A stretch of 64,000 bases of DNA from Candidatus Puniceispirillum sp. Lineage in GTDB: Bacteria > Pseudomonadota > Alphaproteobacteria > Caedimonadales > UBA1908. Below the pieces are notes generated by a model. That model was given only the letters and a program-made list of their open reading frames with translations, had not been told where the DNA came from and searched no databases. Shown here in pieces: positions 12,345-51,796 of this stretch. Location of the stretch: assembly GCA_013822015.1 (NCBI GenBank), contig PNJU01000008.1, forward strand, positions 1 through 64,000. Direction: 5' to 3'. The position numbers and the translations under genes are program-made. Within the stretch, counting starts at the first letter, position 1. Every line of letters starts with the position of its first letter.

Positions 12345-12441
12345 AAGATCACTCCTTTATGTGTTTGTAAAAACACCTCAAACGCCCTTAGGCGAGCATA
12401 ACATTTTTTGTCAACGCGTTGTGGTCAGCTTCGGGCCTTCG

Positions 12442-13640: not shown

Positions 13641-13645
13641 CCCCC

Positions 13646-14647: not shown

Positions 14648-14695
14648 CCTACTTCCTCTCCCTTGGTTTATCGAACCTGACTAGGGCCGCAGCAC

Positions 14696-15670: not shown

Positions 15671-15746
15671 AATATACTTCTTTCTTAGAAGGTGATTTTT
15701 GATACCCCACAAACTAGATCACCCCATAAAAAATGCCAATAAAAAA

Positions 15747-16694: not shown

Positions 16695-16728
16695 TTTTTT
16701 CTCACCTGTAAGGACATATTTTCATGCC

Positions 16729-16757
16729 CTTATAATAGAGGCCTATGCCACAGACAA
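16729..16757 (-). promoter_or_regulatory. Sigma70-like promoter of A5
   Basis: On the minus strand TTGTCT (16752-16757), 17-bp spacer and TATAAG (16729-16734), about 35 bp before the A5 start at 16694. Confidence 0.55.
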
Positions 16758-16800
16758 GCACTGGTGTTGATTATTATAGAGTCACATGCCCATCACATGA

Positions 16801-17976: not shown

Positions 17977-18009
17977 CTTCTTCAACCCAATATTATCAAC
18001 ATACTGGGA

Positions 18010-18039
18010 AGTATAGCAGCAGCTTTGACAAAACTTCAA
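18010..18039 (-). promoter_or_regulatory. Sigma70-like promoter of A6
   Basis: Minus strand TTGAAG (18034-18039), 18-bp spacer, TATACT (18010-18015), 34 bp upstream of ATG 17976. Confidence 0.45.
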
Positions 18040-18220
18040 AGTGTGTTTTTTGAAAGTCAATATATGAAAAAGCCTCGCGGGAAGTAATACCACACGACGC
18101 CGTCTGCTCACGCAATCTTTTTAAAAAATATCCAGCAGGATGAACTTATTCATCATTTGTAAACCTTTTTCTTGGACTATATGGCTGAAAGCAAGGGAAA
18201 CACCACTCAAGGAGACAGAG

Positions 18221-25492: not shown

Positions 25493-25689
25493 ACGAACGC
25501 CCCCCCTTTTTTCTTCTATGATAGCAAAGGGGAGACAAAACACAAAAGATTGATGATGAAAAAAGGTATTAAATCTCAACCATTAAAATTTGGATTATGC
25601 TTTATATGGCGCGTTCAAATATTTTTTCAAAACTATTTACAAGGAAAAATAACCACGTATATTCTCCTTAAAAAAACAGGGGTTCCTTC

Positions 25690-31655: not shown

Positions 31656-33341
31656 TTAAGAAACCTGTCCTTGTGCCTGGGACACAATGCCTTGCATAAA
31701 GCCAGAGGCCCGCTGCAAGTATGCGTAATTTCTTCTCTGGTGCGCACTAAGGTAAGCCTCATCATCCTCGAAGTCTTCCTGCACCAGAAAGACGTTACGG
31801 TCGGCCATGACAGAGTGCAAGTAGGTGCTCAAATCATGACGCGTGAGGTAATTTAGCGCCTTTCCCCAAACAAACAAATACTGCATAACCCAGCTGTCCT
31901 TTTGGTATGCCTTCATAAATGAATGGAGGAGATCAAGGGTCTGGGTTGTCAGATCCTTCAAATCATAAAATGTGCGCGTCCCTCCCAAACCAAGAATGGC
32001 CCCCTCTTGCACAGCTCTTGCGTCGCAGCCCTTTGCGATTTCATAAGCGCGCACAAAGCATGCTTGTCGTGAAGGATATTTCTCACCTCCAAAAGAGCGC
32101 CCGTTTCTGCCGCACGCAACCCCTGTAAAACCCGCACTCACCAGGCACTGGGCATGCATGGCGGGCAAACGGTTTTTTACGGCCAAATCGACGGCCCTTT
32201 GGTGCACAGCGTAAGTTTGCATTTTTTCCCCACCAATGGTTTCCAACCCGCTTTGCACGCGACCAATGGCCAAAAGGGCCCTGACTTGGTCTGCGGGCGA
32301 CAAGGTCATGCTTTTCTCGTATGCTGTAATGAAGGCATCAATAGGACGCTGAATGATTTTATCCGCAAGATGCCCAATGAACTTTGTGTTTCCAAGTCCC
32401 ATGAGCGCCTCAAACATGCGTCCTTGATCTTTATGGTCACTGGCGAGATTGTAAGCATTCATAAAGACGCAGGATGTGTGTTTATAGTCTGTGTAACCTA
32501 GGCGACCAGTGAAACCACAGCTTCCCAGACCTAAGAGCGCGTCAATGTGGTAGACACTTTTCTGAGAAGGATCCATTTGACGCAGGTCCATAAGGGCTTG
32601 GCTATAACAAACGCGCGGATCAAGATAGACCCCGCTCACGCGCCCTGAAAAATTCTCCCCTGCAAGGGCCATGAGTAGCCCAGGCGGCAGGGGTGTTTTT
32701 TGGGCCAGACAAGCCTGGGCAGCAAATAGATGGAAGCGCAAAGGCGTATAGTCCAGTTCACGGAAATTATGCTGGACAAGGAATGAACATCCATCAAGAA
32801 TTGCGCGCACGCTCAAGGGGTTCTTAAGGGTGTCAATCAAGTCATAATAAAGAGGTATTTGCTGATTCCGGGAACCTTGTAATTTTTCTTGTTTGATACG
32901 CTCCATCAGCGCGCGAAGGGTCCGTTCATTGCGTACAGCATGATCTTCCGTGCAAAGGGTCCGTTCATTACGTGCGGCAGGATCTTCCGCGCGAAGGGTC
33001 CGTTCATTACGTGCGGCATGATCTTCCGTGCAAAGGGTCTGTTCATTACGTGCGGCTGAAACTTCTTGCGCGTCCCTTTGCCCTTGCTCCAAGAACTTTC
33101 CTAAGTTGCTCCAGGAAAAAGAGCCACTCACATCAACGGAAAAGGAAAAACCCTCTTCATCAGAGAATTTGTAGGGCGTTGCGTCCGCATCATTTTTTTC
33201 AGCGTCTATGCGCTCACTGGGCCTGTAACCCTGGCCAGCCTCGAGCTTTTGCCTTTTCTCCGGAGGCTCCCCTACAATCTCATCACTACTAAAAACACAC
33301 TGAAACGAAAGCAAAAGACACTGAAATATTATTTTTTTCAT
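31656..33341 (-). CDS. Exported family B repeat protein (B1)
   Basis: 561 residues. Signal peptide MKKIIFQCLLLSFQCVFSS, then PPEKRQKLE (26-34), a basic motif like the c-Myc nuclear localisation signal. About residues 95-145 hold four 13-residue repeats (AARNERTLRAEDP type). From ~150 on, a family module (LYYDLIDTLKNPLSVRAILD, HNFRELDYTPLRFHLFAAQ) leads into Sel1/TPR-like repeats: DALLGLGSCGFTGRL, FEALMGLGNTKFIGHL, RALLAIGRVQSGLE. GAGGACATC precedes the ATG. Upstream promoter shared with B2 and B3. No enzymatic motif; probably a protein-interaction effector (inference). Confidence 0.82.
   Translation of the reverse strand: MKKIIFQCLLLSFQCVFSSDEIVGEPPEKRQKLEAGQGYRPSERIDAEKNDADATPYKFSDEEGFSFSVDVSGSFSWSNLGKFLEQGQRDAQEVSAARNEQTLCTEDHAARNERTLRAEDPAARNERTLCTEDHAVRNERTLRALMERIKQEKLQGSRNQQIPLYYDLIDTLKNPLSVRAILDGCSFLVQHNFRELDYTPLRFHLFAAQACLAQKTPLPPGLLMALAGENFSGRVSGVYLDPRVCYSQALMDLRQMDPSQKSVYHIDALLGLGSCGFTGRLGYTDYKHTSCVFMNAYNLASDHKDQGRMFEALMGLGNTKFIGHLADKIIQRPIDAFITAYEKSMTLSPADQVRALLAIGRVQSGLETIGGEKMQTYAVHQRAVDLAVKNRLPAMHAQCLVSAGFTGVACGRNGRSFGGEKYPSRQACFVRAYEIAKGCDARAVQEGAILGLGGTRTFYDLKDLTTQTLDLLHSFMKAYQKDSWVMQYLFVWGKALNYLTRHDLSTYLHSVMADRNVFLVQEDFEDDEAYLSAHQRRNYAYLQRASGFMQGIVSQAQGQVS
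32911..33066. repeat. Four 39-bp tandem repeats inside B1
   Basis: Units start GCGCGAAGGGTCC or GTGCAAAGGGTCC and alternate in type, giving a 78-bp higher-order period. Each unit is 13 codons, so copy-number change keeps the frame. First unit at 32911, last ends near 33066; the last unit is diverged. Confidence 0.9.
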
Positions 33342-33375
33342 GATGTCCTCACAGGCCTTAGCTGCTATTTCAGAC

Positions 33376-33400
33376 TTACATGGTCGAGTTTTGGTGTCAA
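33376..33400 (-). promoter_or_regulatory. Conserved upstream element of B1
   Basis: Minus strand TTGACA (33395-33400), exactly 13 bp, then ATGTAA (33376-33381), about 35 bp before the B1 ATG. The same pair with the same spacing precedes B2 and B3. TTGACA is a consensus -35; the -10 is probably within ATGTAAGTC. Confidence 0.55.
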
Positions 33401-33454
33401 GTCAGGATCTTGACCAGGGGACACGGGGGTGGGCCGTGGGCGGTATCTTCGCCG

Positions 33455-35068
33455 TTACTGAAGGCTGGAAACCTGAGAGGACATGTCGTGCGCCTCCCTC
33501 CCTTGGGCAATCCTTTGCATAAAGACGGCCGTGCCGACAGTGCACGTATAATCCCTGTTGGCACATGCTTCGAAATACAAGGCGCTATTTGCAAATAATC
33601 TTGGGTCTAGCCTGACATGTCGGTCAATCATGACACTGCCTAAGAATTCTTCAAGCTGGGCCAGTGTCAATCCATTGAGCCGTTCACGCCATGGCAACAA
33701 GTACTTCAAAACCCATCGATCATTCATATGTGTTTGTATAAAGGCATAAAGGACGTCAAGGGTTTGGGGGGTGAGGGTATACAGTGCCTCCTCATGGGAG
33801 GAACTCAAAGACAGCGCAGCTATGGCGCGCACTTGCACTGCCCGTGCGCCACACCCCCTTGCAATCTCATAGGCGTGCATCAAGCAGTCATCTTTTGATG
33901 CGTACTTGTGGCGTGCAAAAATGCGCTCTGCGTTTTGCGACTTTACGTCGAGGATCCCGACACTCAAAAGACACTGGGCATGGAGCGACCCCAGTCTGTT
34001 TTCACAAGCAAGATGGGCCGCCATCTGGTAAAGCTCATAGGATTGAGCACGCTCACCCGCCCCAGCTTCAAAGCGCGACTGATAACGCGCAATTCCCATG
34101 AGCGCTTTAGTCTGCTCAGCAGCACTCAAGAAGTTACTCAATTCGTACGCGTAAAAAAGCGCGTCCACGGGGCGCTCTATTGTTCTGTCCACAAGATGAC
34201 CAATGAAATTGGCGTTCCCCAGCGCCATGAGTGACTCAAACATTCGCCTATGGTCCTGGAGACGAAAAGCCAGAGCGTAAGCATCCTTCAAGACGTCACT
34301 GCGATGGGCATAGATTGAACCGCCTAAAATCCCTGTGTAGCCGTGCCGCCCAAGCTCAAGCAGCGCGTCTATTTGGCTGGCCTCATTGGCCCCTTGCCCG
34401 GGTTCACGAAAGCCTAGTAACGCTTGTTTGAGTGAGGTCTCTGGATCAAAGCTGACCCCTTGTATCTGACCCCGAAACCCTTCCTTTCCCAAGCCAAGAT
34501 AAAGGCGTGCGGGCACGCGAAGCTGCCGTGTCAAGCAGGCACTTGTGGCAAAAACATGGAACCAAAGGGGAGTGTACCCCGCCTCACGAAACTCAAGTTG
34601 TGCCAAAAGCGCGCAAGCATCCAACACACTAGGAACAGGCAGTGGCGCTTTAAGACAGTTGATTAGCTCAAAACACAAGGCAGACAACCGACGCTCCCCA
34701 TGAGCTTGCCCCTTGGCCACCGCAAGGCGCTTCATAAGCCTTTGCACAGCTTCTAGGTTATCAGCTTCTGTACGCACAAGGTCTACCACACCACAAATCC
34801 AGTCCTCTGCTTCCTGAGCGTTGTCGCAAAGCGCGCCATGAGAGCTGTCCTCACATGAGGACATTTCCTCCTCAGTCACGTCATCTTCTAAGGCCGTATC
34901 ACCGAGGAGATTTGACCTACTCACGGGCGACAGAATCTGAGGGTTTTGTAAATGTTCACTGAGTCGCTGCTTCTTCGCACACGGCCTTTGTAGGTCGTCT
35001 GTCAAAACATTTGAGCCACAAGCCGCTTGAAAAGAAAGAAAAAAAATAGTTGATGCAATTTTTTTCAT
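33455..35068 (-). CDS. Exported family B repeat protein (B2)
   Basis: 537 residues from ATG 35068 (MKKIASTIFFLSFQAACGS, signal peptide); an in-frame upstream ATG would start inside the conserved promoter. PCAKKQRLS (29-37) occupies the same place as the basic motif of B1. An acidic stretch (DDVTEEEMSSCEDS) follows. The shared module ALCFELINCLKAPLPVPSVL and FREAGYTPLWFHVFATSACL leads into repeats DALLELGRHGYTGILGG, FESLMALGNANFIGHL and ALMGIARYQSRFE. Lacks the 13-residue repeats of B1. Family member of unknown function, presumably exported. Confidence 0.82.
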   Translation of the reverse strand: MKKIASTIFFLSFQAACGSNVLTDDLQRPCAKKQRLSEHLQNPQILSPVSRSNLLGDTALEDDVTEEEMSSCEDSSHGALCDNAQEAEDWICGVVDLVRTEADNLEAVQRLMKRLAVAKGQAHGERRLSALCFELINCLKAPLPVPSVLDACALLAQLEFREAGYTPLWFHVFATSACLTRQLRVPARLYLGLGKEGFRGQIQGVSFDPETSLKQALLGFREPGQGANEASQIDALLELGRHGYTGILGGSIYAHRSDVLKDAYALAFRLQDHRRMFESLMALGNANFIGHLVDRTIERPVDALFYAYELSNFLSAAEQTKALMGIARYQSRFEAGAGERAQSYELYQMAAHLACENRLGSLHAQCLLSVGILDVKSQNAERIFARHKYASKDDCLMHAYEIARGCGARAVQVRAIAALSLSSSHEEALYTLTPQTLDVLYAFIQTHMNDRWVLKYLLPWRERLNGLTLAQLEEFLGSVMIDRHVRLDPRLFANSALYFEACANRDYTCTVGTAVFMQRIAQGREAHDMSSQVSSLQ

Positions 35069-35103
35069 AGGACAAAGAAAATCCACAGGCGTCTTGCCGA
35101 GGC

Positions 35104-35128
35104 TTACATGGACAGGTCTGCGTGTCAA
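35104..35128 (-). promoter_or_regulatory. Conserved upstream element of B2
   Basis: Minus strand TTGACA (35123-35128), 13 bp, ATGTAA (35104-35109), then GCCTGTG at 35084-35090, as in B1 and B3. Confidence 0.55.
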
Positions 35129-35202
35129 GAATCACTCTGACGACATGGAACACAGCAGATCATGTTGCCTGCATTTTGCTAGCGCGCAACCATCAACGAT
35201 CG

Positions 35203-36765
35203 CTATCCGTTCCCTTGAGTCGTTCCCCTGCGCGCAACATCTTCCATAAAGGACTTTGTGCGTTCCTGGTATATCTTTTTCCCGTCAGCACATGCTTGTT
35301 CATACGCTTGATCATCTTCAAAAGTACCCCTTTCAAAGTACACATATCGATCACCCATGACGTCCTCTAAGAACCTCTCCAGATCTCCTCGTGTCAGATA
35401 ATTCTGCTTATTTTCGCACTCAAACAAGTACTGCAGCACCCAACGATCATCCATATGCTCTCTTACAAAAGCGTTATAAAGATCGAGGGTTTCGGGATTA
35501 AGAGAAGATAACCTGTTACAGATCTGACTTTCACACAAACCTAAAATAGCGCGTTCTTGCACGTCTTTCGCGCCGCTGTTTCTTGCAATGTCATAGGCAT
35601 GGAGAAGACACTCATGCCGTGTTTTATAGGGACGGCCGCCAAAGTTCTGGACGCCTTTATCAAATCCCGCGCCCAAAACACCGATATTTAACAGACACTG
35701 GGCGTGCATGACCTCCAAACCATTATCGCGCGCAAGCTCTACCGCTTTGTTGTGCACATCGTAGAGGCCCATGGTTTGACGTGCAATGTTTTCAAAACCC
35801 TTTTGTGCGCGTGCAATGGCCAAAAGAGCGCGGATTTGATCAGCAGGAAAAAGGCGCAGGCTGTACTCATAAGCAGCAATATGCGCGTCAATGGGACGTT
35901 TAAGCGTGATCCCTGAAAGCAAGCCGTAATAGCCTGTATTGCCAAGACCCATCAATGCCTCATACAAACGCCTTTGATCTTGCTGAAGATACGAAAGGGT
36001 GTATGCATCCTTAAATACATCGGCTATCCCTAAATACAAAGCGCCCCCTAAGCGGCCCGTGTACCCATGACGGCCAAGCCCTAGAAGAGCGTCGATTTTC
36101 AACGCGTCGCTGTGTTCAGCGTATGTGCTGTCCAAAACATCGGCCTTGTGCAAATCCACAAATGCCTGTGCGTAACACAGCACGGGAGTCAGTTTTTTCC
36201 CGCATATTTCCCCATGAAAACCTTCTCTGGCAAGGGCAAGCAAAAGCGTTGGCGGTAAGGTGTGACCTTGCGCTACGCAAGCCTGAGCAGCAAAAGCATA
36301 GCACCAAAGCGGGTTGTAATCCCCCTCACGAAAATCACGCTGAGCTAGAAAAGCGCACCCTTCAAAGACAGCGTTCAAGGACAAAGGTCGTTTCAGTGTT
36401 GCAATGAGATCCAAACACAACGCACGCGCCTGAGCGGTCACTCCTTGCGCTTCCGCTTGGGTAACGTTCCCCATTAGTACACGAAGGATTGCTTCATTCA
36501 GGCTCTCAAGGCTTGCCCCATTCGTGGAGGTAGGCACACAAGACGGATGTGCATTGTGCGTGAAGACAGTATACTGGCAAGCATCAACCCCTATGGAGGT
36601 GGTATCTTCCTCTTCCTGAGGATTGACCAAGGGCCACATCTGAGGACTGGAGGGGAGACTCGCAAGCTGCTGCGCTTCAGTGAGAAAAATCTCTTGCATC
36701 TCAGGGGAACCCAAAACACATTGAAAAGACATAAAAAAACTTAAGCACGCGATCTTTTGCATCAT
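35203..36765 (-). CDS. Exported family B repeat protein (B3)
   Basis: 520 residues from ATG 36765 (tandem ATGs; signal peptide MMQKIACLSFFMSFQCVLGS). Shared module ALCLDLIATLKRPLSLNAVF and FREGDYNPLWCYAFAAQACV, then repeats DALLGLGRHGYTGRLGG, YEALMGLGNTGYYGLLSG, RALLAIARAQKGFE and MHAQCLLNIGVLG. No basic motif after the signal and no 13-residue repeats. Upstream element identical in layout to B1 and B2. Probably exported; repeats suggest binding to other proteins. Confidence 0.82.
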   Translation of the reverse strand: MMQKIACLSFFMSFQCVLGSPEMQEIFLTEAQQLASLPSSPQMWPLVNPQEEEDTTSIGVDACQYTVFTHNAHPSCVPTSTNGASLESLNEAILRVLMGNVTQAEAQGVTAQARALCLDLIATLKRPLSLNAVFEGCAFLAQRDFREGDYNPLWCYAFAAQACVAQGHTLPPTLLLALAREGFHGEICGKKLTPVLCYAQAFVDLHKADVLDSTYAEHSDALKIDALLGLGRHGYTGRLGGALYLGIADVFKDAYTLSYLQQDQRRLYEALMGLGNTGYYGLLSGITLKRPIDAHIAAYEYSLRLFPADQIRALLAIARAQKGFENIARQTMGLYDVHNKAVELARDNGLEVMHAQCLLNIGVLGAGFDKGVQNFGGRPYKTRHECLLHAYDIARNSGAKDVQERAILGLCESQICNRLSSLNPETLDLYNAFVREHMDDRWVLQYLFECENKQNYLTRGDLERFLEDVMGDRYVYFERGTFEDDQAYEQACADGKKIYQERTKSFMEDVARRGTTQGNG

Positions 36766-36796
36766 AAAAACACAGGCCACACACGGTGTCGCACAT

Positions 36797-36821
36797 TTAC
36801 ATGACCGGGTATATGTGTCAA
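36797..36821 (-). promoter_or_regulatory. Conserved upstream element of B3
   Basis: Minus strand TTGACA (36816-36821), 13 bp, ATGTAA (36797-36802), then GGCCTGTG at 36771-36778, about 32 bp before the ATG. Confidence 0.55.
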
Positions 36822-36868
36822 GGAAGGGCGTTGACTAAGTGGCGTCCAACGTCCATGAAAACGCGCCC

Positions 36869-37867
36869 TTACGCGAGCCCAAAATGCCGCCAATTAGGCT
36901 CGCATTTGGTGGATCCTCGCGTGTATTCGGCCAGAAATTCTTGGATATCCTTCTCAGGATCTAAGAATGCGAGGTCGGGCAAATAGCCCCTGTGGAGGGT
37001 CATGCGGGTGTGCGTGTCCAGGAGGTTCTCTCTAATGCCGCCATGTTGTGTCAGGTGCGCACTCAAAGTGGTCAGCTCTTCGGGGCACGGGAAATTTTGC
37101 GCAGCGCAAGCGTCGCTTGCTAGGGTGCATAACATAAGTGGCAAGTAATGTTGGGTGCAAAACCCCTGCCCCATTAGAAACCAACATGCGTCACACACGA
37201 CACGCGCGGGCAAGTTTGTCTTTTCAATATACTGCGCAAGGGCAAGACACAGGGAAAAGGGAGGTGCTTCTTCACGCCTTTTGTGGATTTCTTCAAGGCG
37301 CGTCTTGTAGGTGTAGAGCTTTATAAGGGGGGCGCCCTCCTCGCCCAAATCCCACTCAAGCTGCCGGCGCAAGAAGTTTGCGCGCTCATCCCAATCGGTA
37401 GGTTTTTCTCGCCTCAAACACGCTTCTTTTTCCACAATCTCCACATATTGCGGGTGAATCCATGTTGCAAAAAACTCATTAAGATCAGGCAACAGCAATA
37501 GCAGCTCATTTGCGCGGTCGCCAGGATCTGCATGTTCTATGCGGGACATAAGATAATACTTACCCCCACTGCTCAGGCAATCTAAGATCCTATATACATC
37601 CTCCCAACATGCCACGACCAGGGCGTCATTGGTTTTTAAAATGCCCACCCGCAGCTCAGCAATATAGTCTAGCCGGCGATCATCGCCCAAACATAGACGC
37701 TGGGTTTGATAACGAATCGTTGCCACAACGTTTGCCCAAAACGGGTCATCTTCAGCCTCAGCTGCGGCGCGCTCACGCGTATACTGTGTACTTTCTTCCC
37801 GGGGGGGCATGCCAGCTAAAGACGTTTGAAACAAGACAAACAATCCAAGCAATATTTTTTTTCTCAT
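36869..37867 (-). CDS. Exported short family B relative (C1)
   Basis: 332 residues, signal peptide MRKKILLGLFVLFQTSLAG. The signal shares the LFQ signature of B1-B3. The C-terminal third (LCLALAQYIEKTNLPARVV, CDACWFLMGQGFC, YLPLMLCTLASDACAAQ) resembles the B module but ends before the repeat array. The middle has WDERANFLRRQLEWDLGE, matched by C2 (WDARLEVLRQETAPILGE). AAAGGG lies 8 nt upstream of the start. Function unknown. Confidence 0.78.
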   Translation of the reverse strand: MRKKILLGLFVLFQTSLAGMPPREESTQYTRERAAAEAEDDPFWANVVATIRYQTQRLCLGDDRRLDYIAELRVGILKTNDALVVACWEDVYRILDCLSSGGKYYLMSRIEHADPGDRANELLLLLPDLNEFFATWIHPQYVEIVEKEACLRREKPTDWDERANFLRRQLEWDLGEEGAPLIKLYTYKTRLEEIHKRREEAPPFSLCLALAQYIEKTNLPARVVCDACWFLMGQGFCTQHYLPLMLCTLASDACAAQNFPCPEELTTLSAHLTQHGGIRENLLDTHTRMTLHRGYLPDLAFLDPEKDIQEFLAEYTRGSTKCEPNWRHFGLA

Positions 37868-37928
37868 TATGCACCCTTTCTACCTGTCACCGAAGCAAGC
37901 CTCCCACACCCCATTCTTGGGGTCAAGG
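37865..37928. repeat. Duplicated upstream region, copy 1 (C1)
   Basis: About 63 bp from the C1 start codon outward, nearly identical to 39039-39102: CATTATGC, CCCTTTCTACCTGTGAC and GAAGCCTCCCACACCCC types of blocks, ending GGGGTCAAG. Contains the inverted repeat CCCCA-TTCT-TGGGG. On the minus strand it offers TTGACC as -35 and the SD AAAGGG. It overlaps the end of C2 by a few bases. Confidence 0.85.
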
Positions 37929-39041
37929 GAAGGCGTTTTCGCCTTGATTGGAAGCTGTTACGAGTGGCGTTTGTCCATCTTGTATGCCGTATAGTATCTG
38001 CTTGAGCCCACTTGGCACATCAAAAGAGAAGCCCTGCCTCGCTATTGCAAGCTGCAACTGCCTCAATTTCTCGTGCCTGAATGTTTCTCGCAAGGCAGCC
38101 CCAAGTGGATCAAGATTGTTTATGTTGATGGGCCACTTCTTTAAAAGATTATCCCACTGAATCATCTCGTGGGGATAAAGAACTGGCCCCATGAGCGTCC
38201 CTTTGTCCTTGGCCTCACGGTAAAGATCTGCAAGAATCTGGGGCGCGGGACAACTTTGCGCAAGACAAGCTTTCGTCATTTTCAAGCAATACCAAATCGC
38301 CTGACGCGTATCGGGCTCCTTTCGCATGAGTGCGGCGCACCCATCGCACACAAGGCGCGCAGGCAGATCCTCCCGTTGCTCAAGGGCCTTCGCAAGCTCC
38401 TCGCACATAGCCAGGGCAGACGATTGTGACCTGCGCAGATCAATGTTTTGAATGGATTTATCCATCTCAAAAAGCGCAATGACATGGGAATAGCTTTCCC
38501 CTAAGATAGGCGCCGTCTCTTGTCTCAGCACCTCCAGTCTAGCGTCCCAGTCCGCTGGTTTTTCAAGGGAAAGGGGATCAATGCGCTGCCATAGAACGGC
38601 CACAGATGGGTAATTTTGGGTGATAAAAGTTGTTAAGGCTCCCCGATAGGATGGTAAGCACCAAACGCCTTTATCTCGCTGCATAAGTTTGAGATTGAAT
38701 TCAACTGAGGACTGCTTTGACTGACAAACCCAGCGATGGTCTTCATCCGGTGCAGTGTGCGAAATTTCCCCCAATAAATGACATACCTGATACCACTTTT
38801 TCAGGAGTGTGCTCAGATGCGTCTCTTCAATATTCTTGATAAGTTCCCTCACATGAAGGACCTCAGGGGCATCGTCCGCCAGCACCATCATGTTCGAAGT
38901 TTTGGGCGCATCGTCGGTCACAAAATTAAATTGCTGGCGCATCATATTACTGTGCAGAATCTGCTGGTCCCACGATTCAACAATCGACGCAAATGACGTT
39001 TGAAACAATAGGGCAAATCCAAGCAGTACGACCTTTCCCAT
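37923..39041 (-). CDS. Exported short family B relative (C2)
   Basis: 372 residues, signal peptide MGKVVLLGFALLFQTSFAS. Aligns with C1 in the middle (EKPADWDARLEVLRQETAP) and in the DLPARLVCDGCAALM...MTKACLAQSCPAPQIL module shared with B1-B3. N-terminal part has Met-rich repeats (NMMRQQF, NMMVLADDAPE). Lacks the Sel1/TPR-like array. GAAAGGGGGCATA precedes the ATG. Function unknown; same expression unit style as C1 through the duplicated upstream DNA. Confidence 0.78.
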   Translation of the reverse strand: MGKVVLLGFALLFQTSFASIVESWDQQILHSNMMRQQFNFVTDDAPKTSNMMVLADDAPEVLHVRELIKNIEETHLSTLLKKWYQVCHLLGEISHTAPDEDHRWVCQSKQSSVEFNLKLMQRDKGVWCLPSYRGALTTFITQNYPSVAVLWQRIDPLSLEKPADWDARLEVLRQETAPILGESYSHVIALFEMDKSIQNIDLRRSQSSALAMCEELAKALEQREDLPARLVCDGCAALMRKEPDTRQAIWYCLKMTKACLAQSCPAPQILADLYREAKDKGTLMGPVLYPHEMIQWDNLLKKWPININNLDPLGAALRETFRHEKLRQLQLAIARQGFSFDVPSGLKQILYGIQDGQTPLVTASNQGENAFP

Positions 39042-39102: not shown

Positions 39103-39188
39103 AGGGATAGATTCACGATCACGCCTTTCACGGTCACACGTTTTTTGCTAGTGTGTGGAACGTCTTTTTCGCACCCAGGAGCGCGCCC

Positions 39189-40442
39189 ATGTACACACCT
39201 CATCTTCATGCACAAGATCCAGAACTCGCAGCTTTTGTGGACCATGAGCTGGACCGACAAAGGAATCAACTGGAGCTCATTGCCTCTGAAAACTTTGTGT
39301 CGCGCGCGGTTCTGGAGGCGCAGGGGTCTGTCCTAACCAACAAGTACGCCGAAGGGTATCCGGGGCGTCGCTATTATGGTGGCTGCACCTTTGTGGACGG
39401 GGCTGAGTCCTTGGCCATTGCACGTGCAAAAGAGCTTTTTGGATGCACCTTTGTGAACGTTCAGCCCCACGCGGGCGCCCAGGCCAACCAGGCTGTGTTC
39501 TTGGCCCTTTTAAGTCCCGGCGACACATTCCTTGGGATGCGCCTTGATTGCGGCGGGCACTTGACCCACGGCAGTCCTGTGAACATGTCCGGCAAGTGGT
39601 TTAACCCCATCGGGTACGGCGTGGATCCGGTGACACACCTCATCGATATGGAGGAAGTTGCAAGACTTGCCAGAGAACATAAACCCAAGCTAATCGTTGC
39701 AGGCGGGTCCGCCTACGCGCGCATCATTGACTTTGCCGCCTTTCGGGCCATTGCCGATGAGGTGGGCGCCTATCTCATGGTGGACATGGCCCACTTTGCG
39801 GGCTTAGTTGCGGGCGGCGTCTACCCCTCCCCCCTGCCCCACGCCCATGTGGTGACAACCACCACCCATAAAACCCTGCGCGGTCCCCGGGGCGGCATGA
39901 TCTTGTCGAACGACGAAACCTTTGCCAAGAAAGTGAACTCTGCCGTATTCCCAGGCAACCAAGGCGGCCCCCTCATGCACGTCATTGCCGCCAAGGCTGT
40001 GGCCTTTGGAGAGGCGCTTGCCCCCACCTTCAAAACATACGCGGCACAAGTTGTAAAAAATGCCCGCGCCATGGCCGAGGCCTTCACGGCTGGGGGATTT
40101 GATTTGGTCTCAGGAGGAACGGACTCACACCTCATCCTCGTGGATCTGCGCGCCCAGGGTCTGACTGGACATGACGCGTGCGAGGCCCTGGAGCACGCCG
40201 GCATCACCTGCAACAAAAACGGCACGCCTCAAGATCCCCTGCCCCCCATGCAGACCTCCGGTATTCGCTTAGGATCTCCCGCGTGCACCACACGGGGCCT
40301 GGGTGAGGAAGACTTCGCGCAAATCGGGCATCACTGCGTAGAGGTCCTCAAGGGACTGGTGAACGGCGATCCTGTGTCGGCCCAGACAAAGGCCCGCGCC
40401 TTTGTGGACGACATGTGCCGCAAATATCCTTTGTACCCTTAA
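39189..40442 (+). CDS. glyA: Serine hydroxymethyltransferase
   Basis: 417 residues from ATG 39189 ([13 protein letters not shown]), with AGGAG 9 nt upstream. Typical motifs: [33 protein letters not shown], the PLP lysine in [13 protein letters not shown] and [15 protein letters not shown]. Interconverts Ser and Gly while loading tetrahydrofolate with a one-carbon unit. It is a housekeeping gene between two exported-protein blocks, followed by a strong terminator. Confidence 0.98.
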
Positions 40443-40651: not shown

Positions 40652-43600
40652 ATGTCGATCTTAAAAAAGATTTTAAGTGCTGCGCTCACGCACACCCTTA
40701 TCTTGCAGCTGACCCTTTCGCCTGTTGTGGCGAGCATTCACGAAGAACCCATCGTTCAAAATGCCCGTCCCGACAGGTCTAAGCCCCATAGGTATGTTGA
40801 TAGGAATGGAAGGACGTTCTTCTATGACGAGTACTTTTTAGGCGCGCACAACAATGATTGTTTCTTCAACGCCCTTGGCGCACAAAGGATTGAAGCTATT
40901 GAAAAGGTTGAGTTTATACTTGGAGAGAGACGTCAAAAAACCCTCGCTCTTCTTGACCTGGCCATCGAAGACCAAGCACATGAGCCTTCATTTCACAACT
41001 TGCGCTTACTTTCCCAAGAAGAAAAACGGGCCGCGTATCTCGCGGCTTACAAAACAACCTCACGCATGATTGAATGCGCGCAAAACATAGGCGACACCTC
41101 ACACGTCAGACATAATACCATCACGCTTTTTGATGTGCTTGCCTATGCCTACCAGCGCACTATTTCTGTTTTCAGGCCGCTGGACGTCGCTGAAAAAGAC
41201 CTCGAGATTTTCCACCGCGTCACCTATGGCAAACGGTCCCAAAAGCCAACCCTCTCCCTTTTACTCAAGGGGAGTCACTTCAACGTGTTGATCCCACGCA
41301 AATGGGACGGGTCCCACCGGGAACAAGCACAGATGGCGGAAGAGCGGTACTTGGCAGAACTGCGCAGCCGCGTTTTTCAAGAAAGCCTTGCCCCCGACTT
41401 AGCCCCCTTTGACAGTCCATTGCGCCCGACCCAAAGCAGCACGCCTGAGGCTGTGATGGACGAGGAACAGGAAGCGCCCACACAAGAGGCGCAAGCTGCA
41501 GCCTCTCATCAATCACCCTCAGCCCATCTGGATGAAGAGCCTTTGCGGGCGGCTCCCAGAGTCTTCGCCCGCGATGATGTCCTTGGCTTTCTTCTTAAGA
41601 AGAACCGCACCGTTGCACATCTCTCGCCGGAAGACTCTCTCCAGGCATCTTGGGACGCTCTTTCTGCGTCTAGCTGGGCAACACCTTACGAAAAGTTTGC
41701 GGGCAAGTGCACCCTCATCCTAGAGCACGACTTTCTCCCTGGTGAGGCTCCCCAGGCGCATATCCTGACCCAACTGATAGAAGAGGCACCAAGAGCCCTA
41801 CAAAAGAAAGCACACATGCACCAGGTTGGCATTTATATGGGCCGCCTGCATAAGCGCATGGGCAATCAAGCCCAAGCTTGGCGTTACTTTGCGTGCAGCC
41901 TGGAAGAAAAGAAATATTCTCAGATTGCAAAACTCTATATGGCAGAGATGATTCTAATGAGTGGGTACCGCCCTCTTGGTATTCCCGACCCCCAAGCCTA
42001 CGCCCAGGAACTGCTTGAACAACTTGCCCACACCCCATCTACGCGCAGAAGAATCACTAGCGCACGGGACGGTGGGAGCGTCTCCTATGATCTTCACAAT
42101 CCTTACTTAAATCACCGCTCAAGCCACCAGAAAGCGGCCAGACTTGTGGAGGCCCTTGACACACCACCCGCCAGGCAGCGGGGTCCTGTCACCGCAAGCC
42201 GTGAGTCTGCGCACCGTGATGTCGCTCAAGTAAGAAGCCACGCACCCAGGAACCAACGCCAAAGCGGGTCACCTCGGGAACCGCGCCCTCAGGAAACAGA
42301 GCGTTCCCCCACACCAGCCTCTGTACCCACAAACCACGGCGCTCAAAAACGTCATTTTGGACTCTTAGGCATTTCCGGCCAGGACGCCTCCACAGCCTCT
42401 CCCCCGGCTGAAAAGCGTCCAAGGCTTGATGGTCGCGTATCGTCTCAGAGCCCCGTGACCCCTGACGAGCAAGAGCCAGGCATCCCTGGCATCACCCAAA
42501 GCCCTAATAATGCAGGCGCGGCATTTACTCCTTCCCCTACCCTCAGCTTACACGGGTCATCGGAAACTGAAGACGAGGATGAAGCCCAGGAACTTAAAGA
42601 TACCTTTTCCAATGACAGTACGTCTGACGGGTTTATTCAGGTGAGGGCAATTTTACTGCAAGCGATGTCGCAGTCTAAATACCACCAACAAGCAAGATGT
42701 CACGCGCTGTGTTTTGAGGGCCTTGAAAAGCTGGACAAAATCAACATGCTTGACGTAACGGCCAACACCCGAGACAAACTTTTAATGCTTAAAGGCCATC
42801 TGTTTTTACAGCTTGGAAATAGCCTTCACGCGGGAACCTATCGTGGACAAGACTACCGTTCATCGGACTGGTTCCTAGAGGCGATTGTGGTTGCAAAAAA
42901 AACAGGCAGAAGCAACATTTACTACCGAGCTCTCGTTGGCCTGGGGAATAGAAATTTCGCCGGCCGCATTGATGGCAAAGTTTACACGCCAGAAGACTGT
43001 TTTGAAGAGGTCATCTCGAAAGCCCCCCGTGCGCATGATGATTTGCGCGTGCGCGCTATGCTGGGTCTTGCAAACATGGGAGGTGGGGCAGATAATCTCC
43101 AACGACAGCGCCTTTTTCTCAATGCGCGCAAACTTGCCAGAGATTTGAACGACCCAAATAACGAGATGCGGGCGTACTTAGGGCTGGGCAACGCACACTT
43201 TCACGGACTTATTGACGGAAAACTCTATACGAATAAGGACTGTTTCCTTGCTGCCCTCGACATAGCGCGCGACATAAAAGATCCCATATGGAAAATGCAA
43301 GCCTACCTTGGCCTTGGAAATGCACAGTACAACGGCACCCACAAAGGAAAGGCGTTCACCACTGAAGGCTCGTTCCTAAAAGCCTTAAAAATTGCCAGAT
43401 TGTATGACCAAAGGGATATTCAAATGCGTGCTTTCCTGGGACTTGGCAACTGCAGGTTTCAAGGCACCATAGAGGGTAAGTTTTACTCAGAAGAAGAATG
43501 CTACCATGAGGCCATTGCCCTTGCCCACAAGATTGACGATAAGCAGGGCGAGATGCGTGCACACATGGGACTTGGTAATATGAAAAGCCGCACCAGGTCC

Positions 43601-43837
43601 CAAAGATACGCGTCTTACAGAAAGGCTTATGTTCTGGCAAGAGAGATTAACGATCGTCGTGGAAAAATTCAGTCAATGATTGGCCTTGGCAGAAGCTGCT
43701 TTATCAACGAGCACCGCACCATACGAGAATACTATCATGACGCCATTAACCTGTGCACGCGTGAAGATGAAGACTTGCGTAACCTCGCCATGGATGGTCT
43801 TAAATTTTTGGACCAAGCACGCTCCAATCGAAAGTAA
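40652..43837 (+). CDS. Exported OTU-like cysteine protease with C-terminal repeat array
   Basis: 1061 residues from ATG 40652. Long signal peptide (MSILKKILSAALTHTLILQL, to ~residue 28). Residues ~48-215 fit an OTU fold: N68-D-C70-FFNALG (nucleophile), LFDVLAYAYQRTISVF and a C-terminal KGSHFNVLIP with H209. A helical region follows (300-460), then a Pro/Ser/Arg-rich linker with PAEKRPRLD (585-593). From ~655, a family B-type module leads into about eight ~43-residue repeats (MRAYLGLGNAHFHGLIDGK type). OTU proteases cleave ubiquitin chains in eukaryotes and are used as effectors by intracellular bacteria; activity here is inference. No good Shine-Dalgarno site. Confidence 0.78.
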   Translation: MSILKKILSAALTHTLILQLTLSPVVASIHEEPIVQNARPDRSKPHRYVDRNGRTFFYDEYFLGAHNNDCFFNALGAQRIEAIEKVEFILGERRQKTLALLDLAIEDQAHEPSFHNLRLLSQEEKRAAYLAAYKTTSRMIECAQNIGDTSHVRHNTITLFDVLAYAYQRTISVFRPLDVAEKDLEIFHRVTYGKRSQKPTLSLLLKGSHFNVLIPRKWDGSHREQAQMAEERYLAELRSRVFQESLAPDLAPFDSPLRPTQSSTPEAVMDEEQEAPTQEAQAAASHQSPSAHLDEEPLRAAPRVFARDDVLGFLLKKNRTVAHLSPEDSLQASWDALSASSWATPYEKFAGKCTLILEHDFLPGEAPQAHILTQLIEEAPRALQKKAHMHQVGIYMGRLHKRMGNQAQAWRYFACSLEEKKYSQIAKLYMAEMILMSGYRPLGIPDPQAYAQELLEQLAHTPSTRRRITSARDGGSVSYDLHNPYLNHRSSHQKAARLVEALDTPPARQRGPVTASRESAHRDVAQVRSHAPRNQRQSGSPREPRPQETERSPTPASVPTNHGAQKRHFGLLGISGQDASTASPPAEKRPRLDGRVSSQSPVTPDEQEPGIPGITQSPNNAGAAFTPSPTLSLHGSSETEDEDEAQELKDTFSNDSTSDGFIQVRAILLQAMSQSKYHQQARCHALCFEGLEKLDKINMLDVTANTRDKLLMLKGHLFLQLGNSLHAGTYRGQDYRSSDWFLEAIVVAKKTGRSNIYYRALVGLGNRNFAGRIDGKVYTPEDCFEEVISKAPRAHDDLRVRAMLGLANMGGGADNLQRQRLFLNARKLARDLNDPNNEMRAYLGLGNAHFHGLIDGKLYTNKDCFLAALDIARDIKDPIWKMQAYLGLGNAQYNGTHKGKAFTTEGSFLKALKIARLYDQRDIQMRAFLGLGNCRFQGTIEGKFYSEEECYHEAIALAHKIDDKQGEMRAHMGLGNMKSRTRSQRYASYRKAYVLAREINDRRGKIQSMIGLGRSCFINEHRTIREYYHDAINLCTREDEDLRNLAMDGLKFLDQARSNRK

Positions 43838-43909: not shown

Positions 43910-45076
43910 TCAATCTTTGAGGGAATCCCAGAAGTTCTTTACCTTCTTCAGGAAGGAATCACACTCAGGACTATTAGACGCTTTGGCGCCAAGCTGGGCG
44001 AACTCCTCCATAAGCTCCCTTTGGCGCTTACTGAGTTTCACGGGCGTTTCAACCCGCGCATGCAGATACATGTCGCCCCTTGTTGTGCGGCGCAGCATGG
44101 TCATGCCCTTACCCTTCAAGCGGAAGGTCTTGCCGGACTGGGTCCCTTCAGGAATGGTGATACGCGCTTTGCCGCCTTCAATGGTGGGCACCTCGATGTC
44201 ACCACCGAGCGTTGCCGTTGACATGGGAATGGGCACCTCACAGTGCAGATCCGCCCCTTCCCGGGCAAACACAGGATGGGGCTTCACGCTGACAAACACA
44301 TAGAGATCACCGTTGGCACCGCCCCGAAGGCCTGCCTCGCCCTCACCGGTCAGGCGAATGCGCGAGCCGTCTTCAATGCCTGCAGGCACACTGACGGTCA
44401 GATTTTTCTCGGAGAGGGTGCGCCCCTGACCGCGGCATGTCCCGCAAGGCTTTTCAATGATTTGCCCTGCCCCGCCACACTGGTGACAGGTGCGCTCCAA
44501 GGTAAAGAATCCTTGGCGAGAGCGCACGGTGCCGCTGCCCTGACACAGGGTACAGGTCTTTACGCCCGTGCCTTTTTCGGCGCCGGACCCGCTGCATGTC
44601 CCGCACGCCTTCATGGTGGCAACTTTAATCTTGGCGTTGTACCCCTTAAAGGCTTGCTCCAGGGTAATTTTCAGGTCATGACGCACGTCCGCGCCCTCGA
44701 CACCGCTGGACGCGCGTCGTGCACGCCCGCCGCCTGCCGCCCCCATAAAGTCGCCAAAGACTTCTTCGAAAATGTCGGAAAAACCGCCAGCACCACGGGC
44801 ACCAAAACCGCCTCCAAAGCCACCGGCTCCTCCCCCCATGGACGGGTCGAAGGCCGCGTGCCCCATGCGGTCATAGGCCGCGCGCTTATCTTTATCCTTG
44901 AGGACCTCATAGGCCTCATTGAGTTCTTTAAACTTGGCCTCGGCCGTCTTGTCATCTTTGTTACGATCGGGGTGATACTTCATGGCCAGGGAGCGGTAAG
45001 CCTTTTTCAGCTCCTCCTCGCTCGCCCCTTTGGCGACACCCAGAACGTCGTAATAATCACGCTTTGCCATTGTCAT
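43910..45076 (-). CDS. dnaJ: Chaperone protein DnaJ
   Basis: 388 residues. J domain with HPD ([18 protein letters not shown]), Gly/Phe-rich linker ([19 protein letters not shown]), four zinc repeats ([32 protein letters not shown]) and C-terminal substrate-binding domains. Stimulates DnaK ATPase. GGGATAGA precedes ATG 45076; [11 protein letters not shown] at 45070 is an alternative start. Downstream of dnaK with a strong intercistronic hairpin. Confidence 0.98.
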
Positions 45077-45090
45077 TCTATCCCATAAAG

Positions 45091-45120
45091 AACACCCCGG
45101 GGCTCGCGTCCCGGGGTGTT
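45091..45120 (-). terminator. Intercistronic hairpin between dnaK and dnaJ
   Basis: Perfect 11-bp stem AACACCCCGGG / CCCGGGGTGTT with an 8-nt loop, 23 bp after dnaK. Only a weak U-rich run follows on the minus strand, so partial termination or 3'-end protection is likelier than a full stop. Confidence 0.6.
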
Positions 45121-45142
45121 TGTTTGGACCATTTTATGCGCC

Positions 45143-47065
45143 TTAGCCCTTCTTGGCGTCAGCGCCGTCCACGTCTTCGTACTCGGCGTCGAGGATATCG
45201 CCCTCAACGGGCTTGTCCTGCCCCTCAGGCGCACTCGCGCTAGCCGCAGCAGCCTCATCCTGTGTCGCCTTATAGACCGCTTCACCCATTTTCATGGAGA
45301 CTTGCATCAAGGCCTGGGTCTTGGCTTGAATGCCCTCCAGATCCTCGCCGGTCAGCGCGTCCTTAAGATCCTTCAAAGCGGCCTCAATGGCTTCCTTGTC
45401 CGCAGGCGCAACTTTATCACCGTGCTCCGACAGGCTCTTTTCAGTGCTGTGGGCAAGGCTTTCACCGTGGTTCTTGGCATCAACAAGGGCCCGGCGCTTC
45501 TTATCCTCTTCCGCGTGGGCTTCGGCGTCCTTCACCATCTGATCGATGTCCTTGTCGGACAAGCCGCCGGATGCCTGGATCTGGATCTGTTGCTCTTTTC
45601 CAGTCGCCTTATCCTTGGCGGACACATTGACGATACCGTTGGCGTCGATGTCAAAGGTCACCTCAATTTGGGGCATGCCGCGCGGTGCGGGGGGAATGCC
45701 CATAAGATCAAACTGACCCAGCATCTTGTTGTCCGCCGCCATCTCACGCTCGCCTTGGAACACGCGGATGGTCACGGCGGACTGGTTATCGTCGGCCGTT
45801 GAGAACACCTGACTCTTCTTGGTTGGGATGGTGGTGTTGCGGTCAATGAGGCGCGTGAACACACCGCCCAAAGTCTCAATACCCAAAGACAGTGGCGTCA
45901 CGTCAAGGAGCAAAACGTCCTTCACATCACCGCGCAAAACGCCTCCCTGGATCGCAGCGCCAATGGCCACAACCTCGTCGGGGTTTACGCCGCGGTGGGG
46001 CTCACGTCCGAAGAACTTTTGAACCTCTTCAATGACCTTAGGCATACGTGTCATACCACCAACCAAGATCACTTCTTGGATGTCGCTGGCGGTCAGGCCC
46101 GCATCCTTAAGCGCCTTGCGGCATGGCTCAATGGTGCGCTTGATAAGATCTTCCACCAGCGCCTCGAGCTTGGCGCGGGTCAACTTAATGTTCAAGTGCT
46201 TAGGGCCGGAAGCGTCCGCAGTAATAAAGGGCAGGTTTACGTCTGTTTGGGTAGCACTGGAAAGCTCAATCTTGGCTTTCTCGGCGGCCTCTTTCAAACG
46301 CTGAAGGGCCAGGCGATCTTGGCGCAGATCAACGCCTTGCTCACGCTTAAACTCATCGGCCAAATAGTCGATGATTTTCATATCAAAGTCTTCACCGCCC
46401 AGGAACGTATCACCGTTGGTGGACTTCACTTCAAAAACGCCGTCACCAATTTCAAGAACGGACACGTCGAAGGTACCACCACCCAGGTCATAAACGGCGA
46501 TCACGCCGGAGTTCTTTTTCTCTAGACCATAGGCAAGGGCCGCAGCCGTTGGCTCGTTGATGATACGCAAGACCTCAAGACCCGCGATTTTACCCGCGTC
46601 CTTTGTGGCCTGACGCTGGGCGTCGTTAAAGTAGGCAGGCACCGTGATGACCGCTTGAGTGACTTTTTCGCCCAGGTAATTCTCGGCGGTTTCTTTCATT
46701 TTTTGCAAGATGAACGCGCTGACTTGGCTGGGACTATAGTCCTCGCCGTGTGCATTCACCCACGCGTCCCCGGCCTTGGAGGGAACAATTTTATATGGCA
46801 CCAGCTCCATATCCTTTTTGGTCAAAGGATCGTCGAAGCGGCGGCCAATCAGGCGCTTAATGGCAAAGAGTGTGTTTTCGGGGTTGGTCACAGCTTGGCG
46901 CTTGGCCGCTTGACCCACAAGTTTTTCGCCGCCGGATGTAAAGGCGACCATGGAAGGCGTTGTACGCACACCTTCAGCGTTTTCAATAACCTTTGCCTGC
47001 GCCCCTTCCATAACGGCAACGCAAGAGTTGGTTGTACCCAGGTCAATACCAATGACTTTACTCAT
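45143..47065 (-). CDS. dnaK: Chaperone protein DnaK (Hsp70)
   Basis: 640 residues, standard length. ATPase domain motifs [34 protein letters not shown] and [14 protein letters not shown]; linker [11 protein letters not shown]; substrate-binding and lid domains; acidic tail ending with [13 protein letters not shown]. Works with DnaJ downstream; grpE is not in the window. AAGGAGAATCTTC precedes the ATG and is partly covered by a possible ROSE-like hairpin. A 120-nt leader runs from the promoter at 47189-47216. Confidence 0.99.
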
Positions 47066-50296: not shown

Positions 50297-51796
50297 ATGT
50301 CCAACAAAAAGTATTCGCATATTTATACATTGTGGACCGACATCAAAAAAAGGTGCTCAAATACAATTAAGAAGCGCCCTTTTACAAAAAAACGTTATTT
50401 TCATGAGTTGAAACTCGTTTTTTCATCAGCTGCTGCCCGTTGGGCACCGACCTTCTTAGGCATCGCACTTGCTTTATTTGTAGGCGCCACGCTTGGGTCA
50501 CTTATCTATCATCGGGTTCATTTTGATGGGCAAAAAAGCAAGGACGCCTTACGGGTGCAACATGCTTATGAGCACATCGTGGAAGAGATAAAAGAGCACC
50601 TCACCTTTGTTGCGAGGCTTTCACACACAAACACTCTTCATAAGGAGAAGGAGACCCTGCAGAATGCACCCCTTTCCTTTGCGCAAAATCGCCTTACGTA
50701 TTTGCCGAACGAGCACAAGTCAGGGCTTTCCGCTGATGCCAATGACATTTGCTTTTATAAGGCCTTCGCGCGCGCCCATGGTACGCTTGTGCTTAAAATC
50801 CCCTTAGAACAGATGGCAAGGAAGCTAGGCTTGAAAGCTCTTTCTGTTCAAAAAAGTGAGGGTATTCTCAAAACAGAGGCTGGGAACCTTTACTATCCCT
50901 ATCAAAGTGGCTCCTTCTGGGAGAGCTTTGTGGACAAGAGGATACCACCCTTTCTTGTCTTTCTTGCGTGCGCATATGGATTCATGCTGATCATCTTTTG
51001 TGTGGCGGGCGTTACCCGTGCACGGGCCCGCTTTGAGATCGCCGATGAATTAGATAAACTTCAGCAAAACATCACCCATGCTGATGGCCTGATCCGTTCC
51101 ATGGGGGACGACATGCACGCACTTAAAAAGACTCTCACAAGCACGCAAAAGGCGCAGAAGCTTCTTTCATCCTTAAGCCACAAACGCGCGCATCGACAGG
51201 CGCAGGCCTGGGGCAGCGCACGCTCTCTTGCAACACTTGTGAGGCACGTGTCCAATGAAGATGTGTGTCTGTCTCAAATCGACGCACTCATGCAAGAGCT
51301 GCACCACGTGCTTGTGACTGGCCAAGAGAGCACGGTGCAGCAAGATGTCACACACATTGATGTCCCCCAAACTCTGGCGCGCGTTTTTGCCATGCTAGAG
51401 CCGTTTATGGACCGCGCCCGTGTCACATGCATCAGTCACGTGAATGAAACAGATTTTCCCATTGAAGCGGACCCGTATTTGTTTGAGCTGTGTCTGCTCA
51501 TTCTGTGTAAAGACTTAGTCTTTTACTCCCTTGAGGGGGCACGTGTGGTTGTTTCGTCGTGTGAAGGAGCGCTCTGCCTAGCCCTTGAAGGGAATTTTGT
51601 AAACGTGGGCACAACCTTTGGCCGAGATACCGTAGATCTTGGCTTTATGGGTTTTCCTCGAGACCACATTCCACAACTTGTAAGCTCGCTAGGCATGACG
51701 TTGTACCAAACAAAATCAGGCTTCGCGCTCTTCCTTTGCGATGCCCCCCATCAAGAAAGTGCCTCCCATGACACTGTTATCCCTCTTTTTGCGTAG
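50297..51796 (+). CDS. Degenerate sensor histidine-kinase-like membrane protein
   Basis: 499 residues. Transmembrane helices at about 49-71 (APTFLGIALALFVGATLG) and 217-239 (IPPFLVFLACAYGFMLIIF) bracket a ~145-residue extracytoplasmic domain. After TM2 comes a charged linker and a helical-pair region (about 245-340). A C-terminal alpha/beta part (TLARVFAMLEPFMDRARV, YLFELCLLILCKDLVFYS) has the layout of a HATPase domain. No phospho-accepting H box and no canonical N, G1 or G2 boxes could be identified, so kinase activity is doubtful. It overlaps the STAND gene by 29 or 56 bp and has its own promoter. Confidence 0.6.
   Translation: MSNKKYSHIYTLWTDIKKRCSNTIKKRPFTKKRYFHELKLVFSSAAARWAPTFLGIALALFVGATLGSLIYHRVHFDGQKSKDALRVQHAYEHIVEEIKEHLTFVARLSHTNTLHKEKETLQNAPLSFAQNRLTYLPNEHKSGLSADANDICFYKAFARAHGTLVLKIPLEQMARKLGLKALSVQKSEGILKTEAGNLYYPYQSGSFWESFVDKRIPPFLVFLACAYGFMLIIFCVAGVTRARARFEIADELDKLQQNITHADGLIRSMGDDMHALKKTLTSTQKAQKLLSSLSHKRAHRQAQAWGSARSLATLVRHVSNEDVCLSQIDALMQELHHVLVTGQESTVQQDVTHIDVPQTLARVFAMLEPFMDRARVTCISHVNETDFPIEADPYLFELCLLILCKDLVFYSLEGARVVVSSCEGALCLALEGNFVNVGTTFGRDTVDLGFMGFPRDHIPQLVSSLGMTLYQTKSGFALFLCDAPHQESASHDTVIPLFA

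Follow-up and report, generated by a model that had tools for sequence, protein, structure and literature searches.

A divergent OTU-fold protease candidate with a TPR-like repeat tail in a Holosporales-type bacterium

Here we ask whether a long open reading frame in a 64,000-nucleotide stretch of Candidatus Puniceispirillum sp. (contig PNJU01000008.1, positions 1 to 64,000; hereafter the window) encodes an OTU protease, and what such a protein might act on. The frame occupies window 40652-43837 on the forward strand, runs from an ATG at 40652 to a stop codon at 43835-43837, and encodes 1061 amino acids with 0 internal stops; a TTG at 40637 offers an alternative upstream start. The parts of the encoded protein (the window protein) follow one another as a signal-like N-terminus, the motif HNND-C70, the motif KGS-H209-F-N211, a middle region, a low-complexity linker of polar residues, and a tail of eight TPR-like repeats (Table 1). 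A first-pass annotation had proposed an exported OTU-like deubiquitinase fused to repeats; the residues it named—D69, C70, S208, H209, F210, and N211—all stand where it had placed them, and the checked translation puts H209 139 residues after C70. To our knowledge, bacteria lack a ubiquitin system, and bacterial OTU proteases are therefore good signposts of host manipulation.

The probable OTU-fold domain and its predicted active site

We are highly confident that the N-terminal domain of the window protein is an OTU domain. The assignment draws on a profile-profile comparison, a profile that leaves the immediate family out, remote matches to solved OTUs, and a confidently predicted fold. A profile-profile OTU match, which had been set beforehand as a test of the idea, was obtained, through the family and not from the protein alone. 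The window family (A1) comprises the window protein and its two nearest relatives: a paralogue of 1344 amino acids in the same genome (L009) and one further relative from the genus (L024), whose frame is open at the contig end. Compared by hhalign with a profile of 42 relatives that omits all three (A5), A1 gave a probability of 99.2 and an expectation value (E) of 2.4e-19; a trimmed rerun scored 119.5, against at most 15.5 for 60 column-shuffled versions of A5, 18.6 for reversed A5, and 19.4 for reversed A1. Run on three genomes of the genus, A5 found the window gene at 3.8e-11 (the half with His) and 1.2e-5 (the half with Cys), and both nearest relatives likewise.

Solved structures point the same way. 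When A5 was compared with all PDB sequences, otubains or viral polymerase chains solved over an OTU domain took the first 13 of 32 rows (4.8e-7 to 6.5e-3), among them the viral OTU 7y5m at 4.8e-7 and OTUB1 at 3.8e-5; the first non-OTU was row 14 (6h9l, 6.7e-3). With the family profile that includes the window family (A4), the eight best of 38 rows were OTUs (2.6e-4 to 2.7e-3, with OTUB2 at 2.6e-4), and the ninth, CLF1 (0.011), was not. In these alignments the family Cys sits on the Cys of DG[ND]C and the family His on the His of H-[YF]. A 45-sequence alignment yielded a predicted fold with a predicted local distance difference test score (pLDDT) of 90.5; in a structure search with this fold all 50 solved structures listed were OTUs, at 9-18% identity in the alignments shown. 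C70 (model residue 46) starts a helix (H46-50) and H209 (model residue 185) starts a strand (E185-191), as in OTUs. The features that characterize the OTU superfamily are present in the family—a predicted OTU/papain-like fold, a Cys at a helix start that precedes a strand with His, an aromatic residue, and N, D, or E, and a profile relation to known OTUs.

The domain escapes direct searches. A Pfam scan of the window protein returned no OTU or C65 match, only a weak TPR_12 match and an implausible Astrovir_pp_1 match (0.083), and the domain alone matched neither Pfam OTU (PF02338) nor Peptidase_C65 (PF10275). PF02338 had 0 matches in the window's own genome, a negative with a weak control, as this profile matched 1 of 14 control genomes and rose over its cut-off in 0. 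The window protein matched nothing in NCBIfam or PHROGs. A phmmer search of PDB with the domain returned one irrelevant match (0.74), and a search of PDB with a three-sequence profile returned none. Plasmids searched with the window domain and phages searched with the domain of a relative gave no match, and none was confirmed for the window domain against genome contigs. A structure predicted from the three sequences alone reached a pLDDT of 47.8. As judged from its sequence, the window protein lies outside PF02338 and PF10275 as curated and is a divergent OTU-fold protein.

The residues expected of an OTU active site are well kept in the family. Cys is present in 44 of the 45 rows of the family alignment A6 (L065 has a gap), and His209 in 45/45, followed in every row by an aromatic residue (F 30, Y 15) and then by N (29), D (7), Q (5), T (3), or S (1); Asp161 and His188 are kept in 39/45 and 40/45. 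From 31 candidates, A6 left out L083 and L074, which lack Cys in the expected motif, and L103, whose Cys motif is the same as that of L082. Weak or split loci among the 56 scanned (L062, L069, L073, L075, L076, L089-L091, L098, L099, and L104-L106) were also excluded, together with L056 (interrupted) and loci repeating a gene already in the set. With eight excluded relatives restored (L062, L073, L074, L083, L089, L090, L099, and L103), the counts become 50/53 for Cys, 52/53 for His, and 53/53 for the aromatic residue.

The loop that leads to Cys is less regular. It reads HNND-C in the window protein and TGNA-C and LGHE-C in its nearest relatives, and not D-G-[ND]-C, the canonical motif. D69 had been read as an OTU hallmark beside Cys; the two nearest relatives have Ala and Glu in its place, and position -1 to Cys varies (D 15, N 8, A 7, and others). 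We rejected D69 as a conserved active-site residue, since Asp stands there in 15/45 rows only. Position -3 is Asp in 26/45 rows and Asn67 in the window protein, and presumably corresponds to D10 of the first OTU domain of LotA. In LotA OTU1, according to one study (PMC10133868), D10 belongs to the oxyanion hole, and its change to Ala abolished cleavage. Elsewhere, an acidic position is described as typically lying two residues after His, with variable effects of mutation (PMC7396840), and the aromatic residue after His as setting deubiquitinases and other Gly-Gly proteases apart from most cysteine proteases and as contacting Gly75 of ubiquitin (PMC7391069). Sequence and model together support the fold and the Cys-His dyad of the window protein; the conserved residues make catalytic activity likely, and the His-aromatic motif is suggestive of deubiquitinase activity.

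Repeat tail, shared architecture, and relatives

The C-terminal tail had been described as eight repeats of about 43 residues with LGLGN cores. That outline is right; the detail is looser, in that the exact LGLGN core occurs in 3/8 units (xGLGN in five) and the hand-segmented units (residues 710-1042) measure 49, 42, 39, 43, 43, 43, 38, and 36 residues. A repeat profile made from four units recovered its own four by construction and two more (E 8.4e-6 and, weakly, 0.049), leaving the remaining two hand-called units unrecovered. The repeats exceed chance, since blastp matches them to the tail of the paralogue (9e-38) and to the tail of a protein that belongs to a different order (3e-24). Pfam TPR_12 touches the window protein at E 3.4e-4 (21.2 bits against a cut-off of 30.1) and the paralogue at 28.9 against 30.1 bits; a TPR-like nature of the tail fits protein binding.

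The order that includes G015 supplied two proteins, L129 (genome G399) and L130 (G397, partly masked), whose parts are arranged as in the window protein. Window parts matched L130 by blastp at 5e-9 (OTU), 1e-9 (middle), and 4e-11 (repeats), and L129 at 1e-4 (middle) and 3e-24 (repeats); the OTU match to L129 was not significant, and its OTU domain was found by the A4 profile (as L067, the same gene). A middle-domain profile from the three genus members found L130 at E 1.4e-15 and L129 at 4.8e-11, followed among different genes by L095, an OTU relative, at 0.0017. On these matches, a predicted order of N-terminal OTU, middle domain, and GLGN repeats recurs in five or more proteins spread over two orders, and all five of those compared have a hydrophobic N-terminus by eye. 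The repeats of L129 are mutually very similar, at spacings of 33-37 residues, which points to a recent repeat expansion.

Related repeats also occur close to the window gene. Three paralogues on the reverse strand (31656-36780; 37-46% mutual identity) have signal-like N-termini and repeats that match the window protein (blastp 1e-12 to 3e-7), so this repeat type is common to several proteins of the locus. They form part of five consecutive reverse-strand genes with signal-like N-termini (31656-39041), of which the other two are similar to one another (25%); a Pfam scan of four of the five gave no match over cut-off. This group beside the OTU gene has the look of a secreted family in expansion. 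Tandem Repeats Finder reported a single tandem DNA array in the window (32910-33056; a 39-base unit in 3.6 copies), which lies within the coding sequence for the first GLGN-repeat paralogue.

The wider family emerged from progressively broader searches. The window protein, L009, and L024 share 59 invariant columns in their first 238 residues, including C70, H209, and N211 and excluding D69. The window domain alone matches 2/94 genomes, its own and one other of the genus, and not G001 of the same genus. Within the order, the three-sequence profile gave three weak outside matches (E 0.05-0.1), and 4/11 genomes matched at E <= 0.1; these frames, of 1123-1182 residues in the window's own genome (G000), G001, and G007, bear the textbook OTU motifs GDGNC and GNH[FY]NR. 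Profile-profile comparison of the window group with this GDGNC group gave a probability of 96.5 and E 7e-10, with His on His and Cys on Cys, the latter beside a one-column gap. The extended family search found relatives in 7/386 genomes of the class (E <= 0.01) and, in two further orders, in 13/17 and 15/42 genomes, with up to six matches in one genome. In NCBI taxonomy, Caedimonas falls within Holosporales, bacteria that live inside other cells, mostly protists. In a related order, the loci L047, L045, and L048 (G260) hold OTU-family domains in open frames that span 2599-2797 residues, and a single genome can have several of them; these could be giant effectors.

Otubains and the nairovirus vOTU are the best solved relatives by family profile; OTUB1 and vOTU likewise have Cys before His and an H-aromatic-N motif (PMC7396840), and the conserved family strand His aligns with the otubain His. 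Unlike them, the window protein is bacterial, has NND-C in place of DGNC, and carries a signal-like N-terminus, a middle domain, and a TPR-like tail. The Legionella LOT-DUBs (LotA-D) have helical lobes of 178-210 residues (PMC7690952); the window protein has only about 85 residues between Cys70 and the conserved C-terminal half, and 139 in all from C70 to H209. LOT triads are of the A20 type according to PMC10133868, whereas the likely third residue here is the Asn two after His. By these features the window protein is not a LOT-DUB.

Combinations of OTU domains and repeats are not new in themselves. For endosymbionts, Zhang et al. 2012 (PMC3482391) describe OTU-like domains with Sel1, ankyrin, or TPR repeats and exported OTU proteins in Odyssella; some OTUs with helical repeats, which the window protein resembles, were proposed there as suppressors of host ubiquitin defences. 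Going by those descriptions, the OTU domain of the repeat-bearing proteins is extreme C-terminal or internal, whereas that of the window protein is N-terminal with the repeats C-terminal. Rickettsia RARP-2 offers a functional analogy: as outlined in PMC11077975, it joins an N-terminal cysteine protease to C-terminal repeats that vary in number and are said to drive localisation; its protease, however, is clan CD-like, its repeats are ankyrins, and it is linked to a type IV secretion system, of which VirB4 was not found here. A word search of the wMelOTU / OTU paper of Schubert et al. 2020 (PMC7396840) for Holospor-, Caedi-, or Odyssella gave no mention. The literature matches listed, with most subscription papers outside their coverage, held no paper on this OTU family in Holosporales. 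OTU-plus-repeat proteins of intracellular bacteria have thus been known since 2012, and what those matches did not contain is a Holosporales branch that, from its sequences, combines an altered Cys-loop with a fixed architecture.

Candidate function and its alternatives

We favor the reading that the window protein is an active, host-directed, exported OTU-fold protease that acts on ubiquitin or on a Gly-Gly-ended ubiquitin-like modifier of the host, with a probability of roughly 0.57. The protein would be exported by the Sec route, as its N-terminus suggests by eye, and then released from the cell; secretins and TolC-type channels are encoded and might serve this step, and no VirB4 was found. 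It may dock on a host protein or complex through its middle domain and its TPR-like GLGN tail. Cleavage would fall to Cys70-His209-Asn211, with Phe210 as the gatekeeper for Gly-75, a chemistry that the residues and the predicted fold would allow. Removal of ubiquitin or a related modifier could then weaken a defence that relies on ubiquitin or alter what becomes of the target.

The N-terminus (MSILKK, a hydrophobic stretch, and LSPVVAS) resembles a Sec signal by eye and has the same layout in the two nearest relatives; a crude hydrophobicity rule was uninformative on this point. We rejected that rule, since it flags 19/45 family rows and 21/57 background frames; it flagged the window protein marginally, from an internal Leu, and missed both nearest relatives. 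The genome gave three matches to secretin and six to TolC-type OEP, the latter spread over three open frames. The two secretin frames scanned, of three, are nearest to GspD and MshL, both under cut-offs. VirB4 was not found in 3 genomes; type VI and type III systems were not searched for. Near one secretin lies a Bac_export_1 gene, which may be flagellar.

Three relatives (L065, L074, and L083) have lost Cys and retain the H-[FY]-[ND] strand; some family members may therefore be catalytically inactive. From their sequences, these could be modifier-binding OTU relatives. The choice of rows flattered the Cys count. Against the OTU assignment itself stands that, on single members, Pfam touches C65 in 6/45 (best E 0.014) and OTU in 1/45 (0.023), with none below 0.01. 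The failure of the signal rule and the additional Cys-less relatives lowered our estimate from 0.6 to 0.57.

The Cys-less relatives also feed an alternative that we consider unlikely, in which the OTU fold is kept, catalysis is weak or lost, and the domain binds ubiquitin or a modifier while the repeats do the work. The varied loop (NND, GNA, and GHE before Cys in the three window-type proteins, and Asp at -3 in only 26/45 family rows) would fit this, as would BurkOTU, for which PMC7396840 reports binding without cleavage of a ubiquitin substrate. Yet the three window-type proteins, at 32-36% identity, all retain Cys, His-aromatic, and Asn, NND-C recurs in members that keep Cys and H-Y-N (NNDCGFNCL in L048 and L093), and Asn could in principle donate the oxyanion hydrogen bond.

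It is improbable, in our estimate, that the domain serves as a toxin or processing protease against rival bacteria in the manner of polymorphic toxins, a role that the 2012 survey proposed for certain OTU domains, among them exported domains of Odyssella, an endosymbiont of Acanthamoeba (Zhang et al., PMC3482391). Here the OTU domain is N-terminal, where it directly follows the signal-like segment, and does not occupy a variable C-terminus. Nor does a co-directional gene follow that could act as an immunity candidate, as the next gene, presumably dnaJ, is convergent at a gap of 72 bases. We give just as little credence to a housekeeping protease of the cell envelope or periplasm, built on a TPR scaffold and with no host role: a signal peptide alone places the protein only outside the inner membrane, and no dedicated effector system is linked to it, but the patchy distribution (G001 has no window-type gene), the divergence of relatives that often number several per genome, and a His-aromatic motif typical of Gly-Gly-specific proteases are unlike a housekeeping gene.

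A broader proposal is conceivable and still doubtful: Holosporales-type bacteria, which presumably live in protists, may carry an unmodelled OTU branch with a Cys-loop lacking Asp at -3, partly fused to a fixed targeting module (the middle domain and a variable number of GLGN repeats), whose members would be delivered as address-tagged modifier proteases, possibly acting on a ubiquitin-like modifier of the hosts that standard ubiquitin probes would miss. Since 45/45 members scanned are not clearly recognised by Pfam, such OTU repertoires may be under-counted, and the altered Cys-loop would test how far the OTU oxyanion hole can change with activity kept.

Neighbouring genes and other features

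Table 1. Features of the window protein with their coordinates in the window and the evidence for each.
Feature	Position	Strand	Basis
Signal-like N-terminus, residues 1-28	40652..40735	+	KK, hydrophobic stretch, and PVVAS, by eye; layout as in both nearest relatives
OTU-fold cysteine protease domain, about residues 45-217	40784..41302	+	hhalign, leave-out profile, predicted fold
Cys70, predicted nucleophile, first helix residue in model	40859..40861	+	A6 conservation; aligned with viral OTU and otubain Cys
Asp161, family-conserved helix residue	41132..41134	+	39/45 rows
His188, family-conserved strand residue; aligns with otubain His	41213..41215	+	40/45 rows; OTUB2/OTUB1 alignment
His209-Phe210-Asn211, predicted general base, aromatic gatekeeper, and third triad residue	41276..41284	+	A6 conservation
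Middle helical domain, residues 305-477, common to five proteins of the same architecture	41564..42082	+	Profile and blastp; helicity by eye
Pro/Ser/Gln/Arg/Glu-rich linker, about residues 490-680, likely disordered	42119..42691	+	Composition of translation
Eight TPR-like GLGN repeats, residues 710-1042	42779..43777	+	Hand segmentation, repeat profile, blastp; Pfam TPR_12 below cut-off

Upstream on the same strand lies a gene that we take from its translation to be glyA (39153-40442), and the convergent pair downstream (43910-47065, reverse strand) reads as what is presumably dnaJ-dnaK. Promoter and terminator scans were close to chance (4 found against 3.1 expected, and 6 against 4.6).

A further tandem group, whose proteins for the most part begin with a signal-like segment, occupies 11229-18111 on the reverse strand; four of them (13646, 14837, 15747, and 16801) are related, the detected pairs at 32-38% identity, and two of the six proteins of the group were scanned and had no Pfam match. 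At 51741-54044 on the forward strand, a protein with a signal-like N-terminus combines a P-loop NTPase of STAND/AAA type (nSTAND1 6.5e-4, below cut-off) with TPR repeats (TPR_12 4e-13); an exported STAND ATPase would be odd, as ATP is scarce outside the cytoplasm. Two subtilisin-type proteases (Peptidase_S8) with signal-like N-termini are encoded on the reverse strand at 23687-25579 and 59998-61851, the latter prolonged at its C-terminus by a long segment that matched nothing. In the contig of the genus relative, the gene directly upstream (L024:1353-2531, forward strand) encodes what we take to be a Fic-type protein, from its HPFEDGNGRIAR motif; it adjoins an ATPase-like gene, and a mobile or toxin-antitoxin context is possible.

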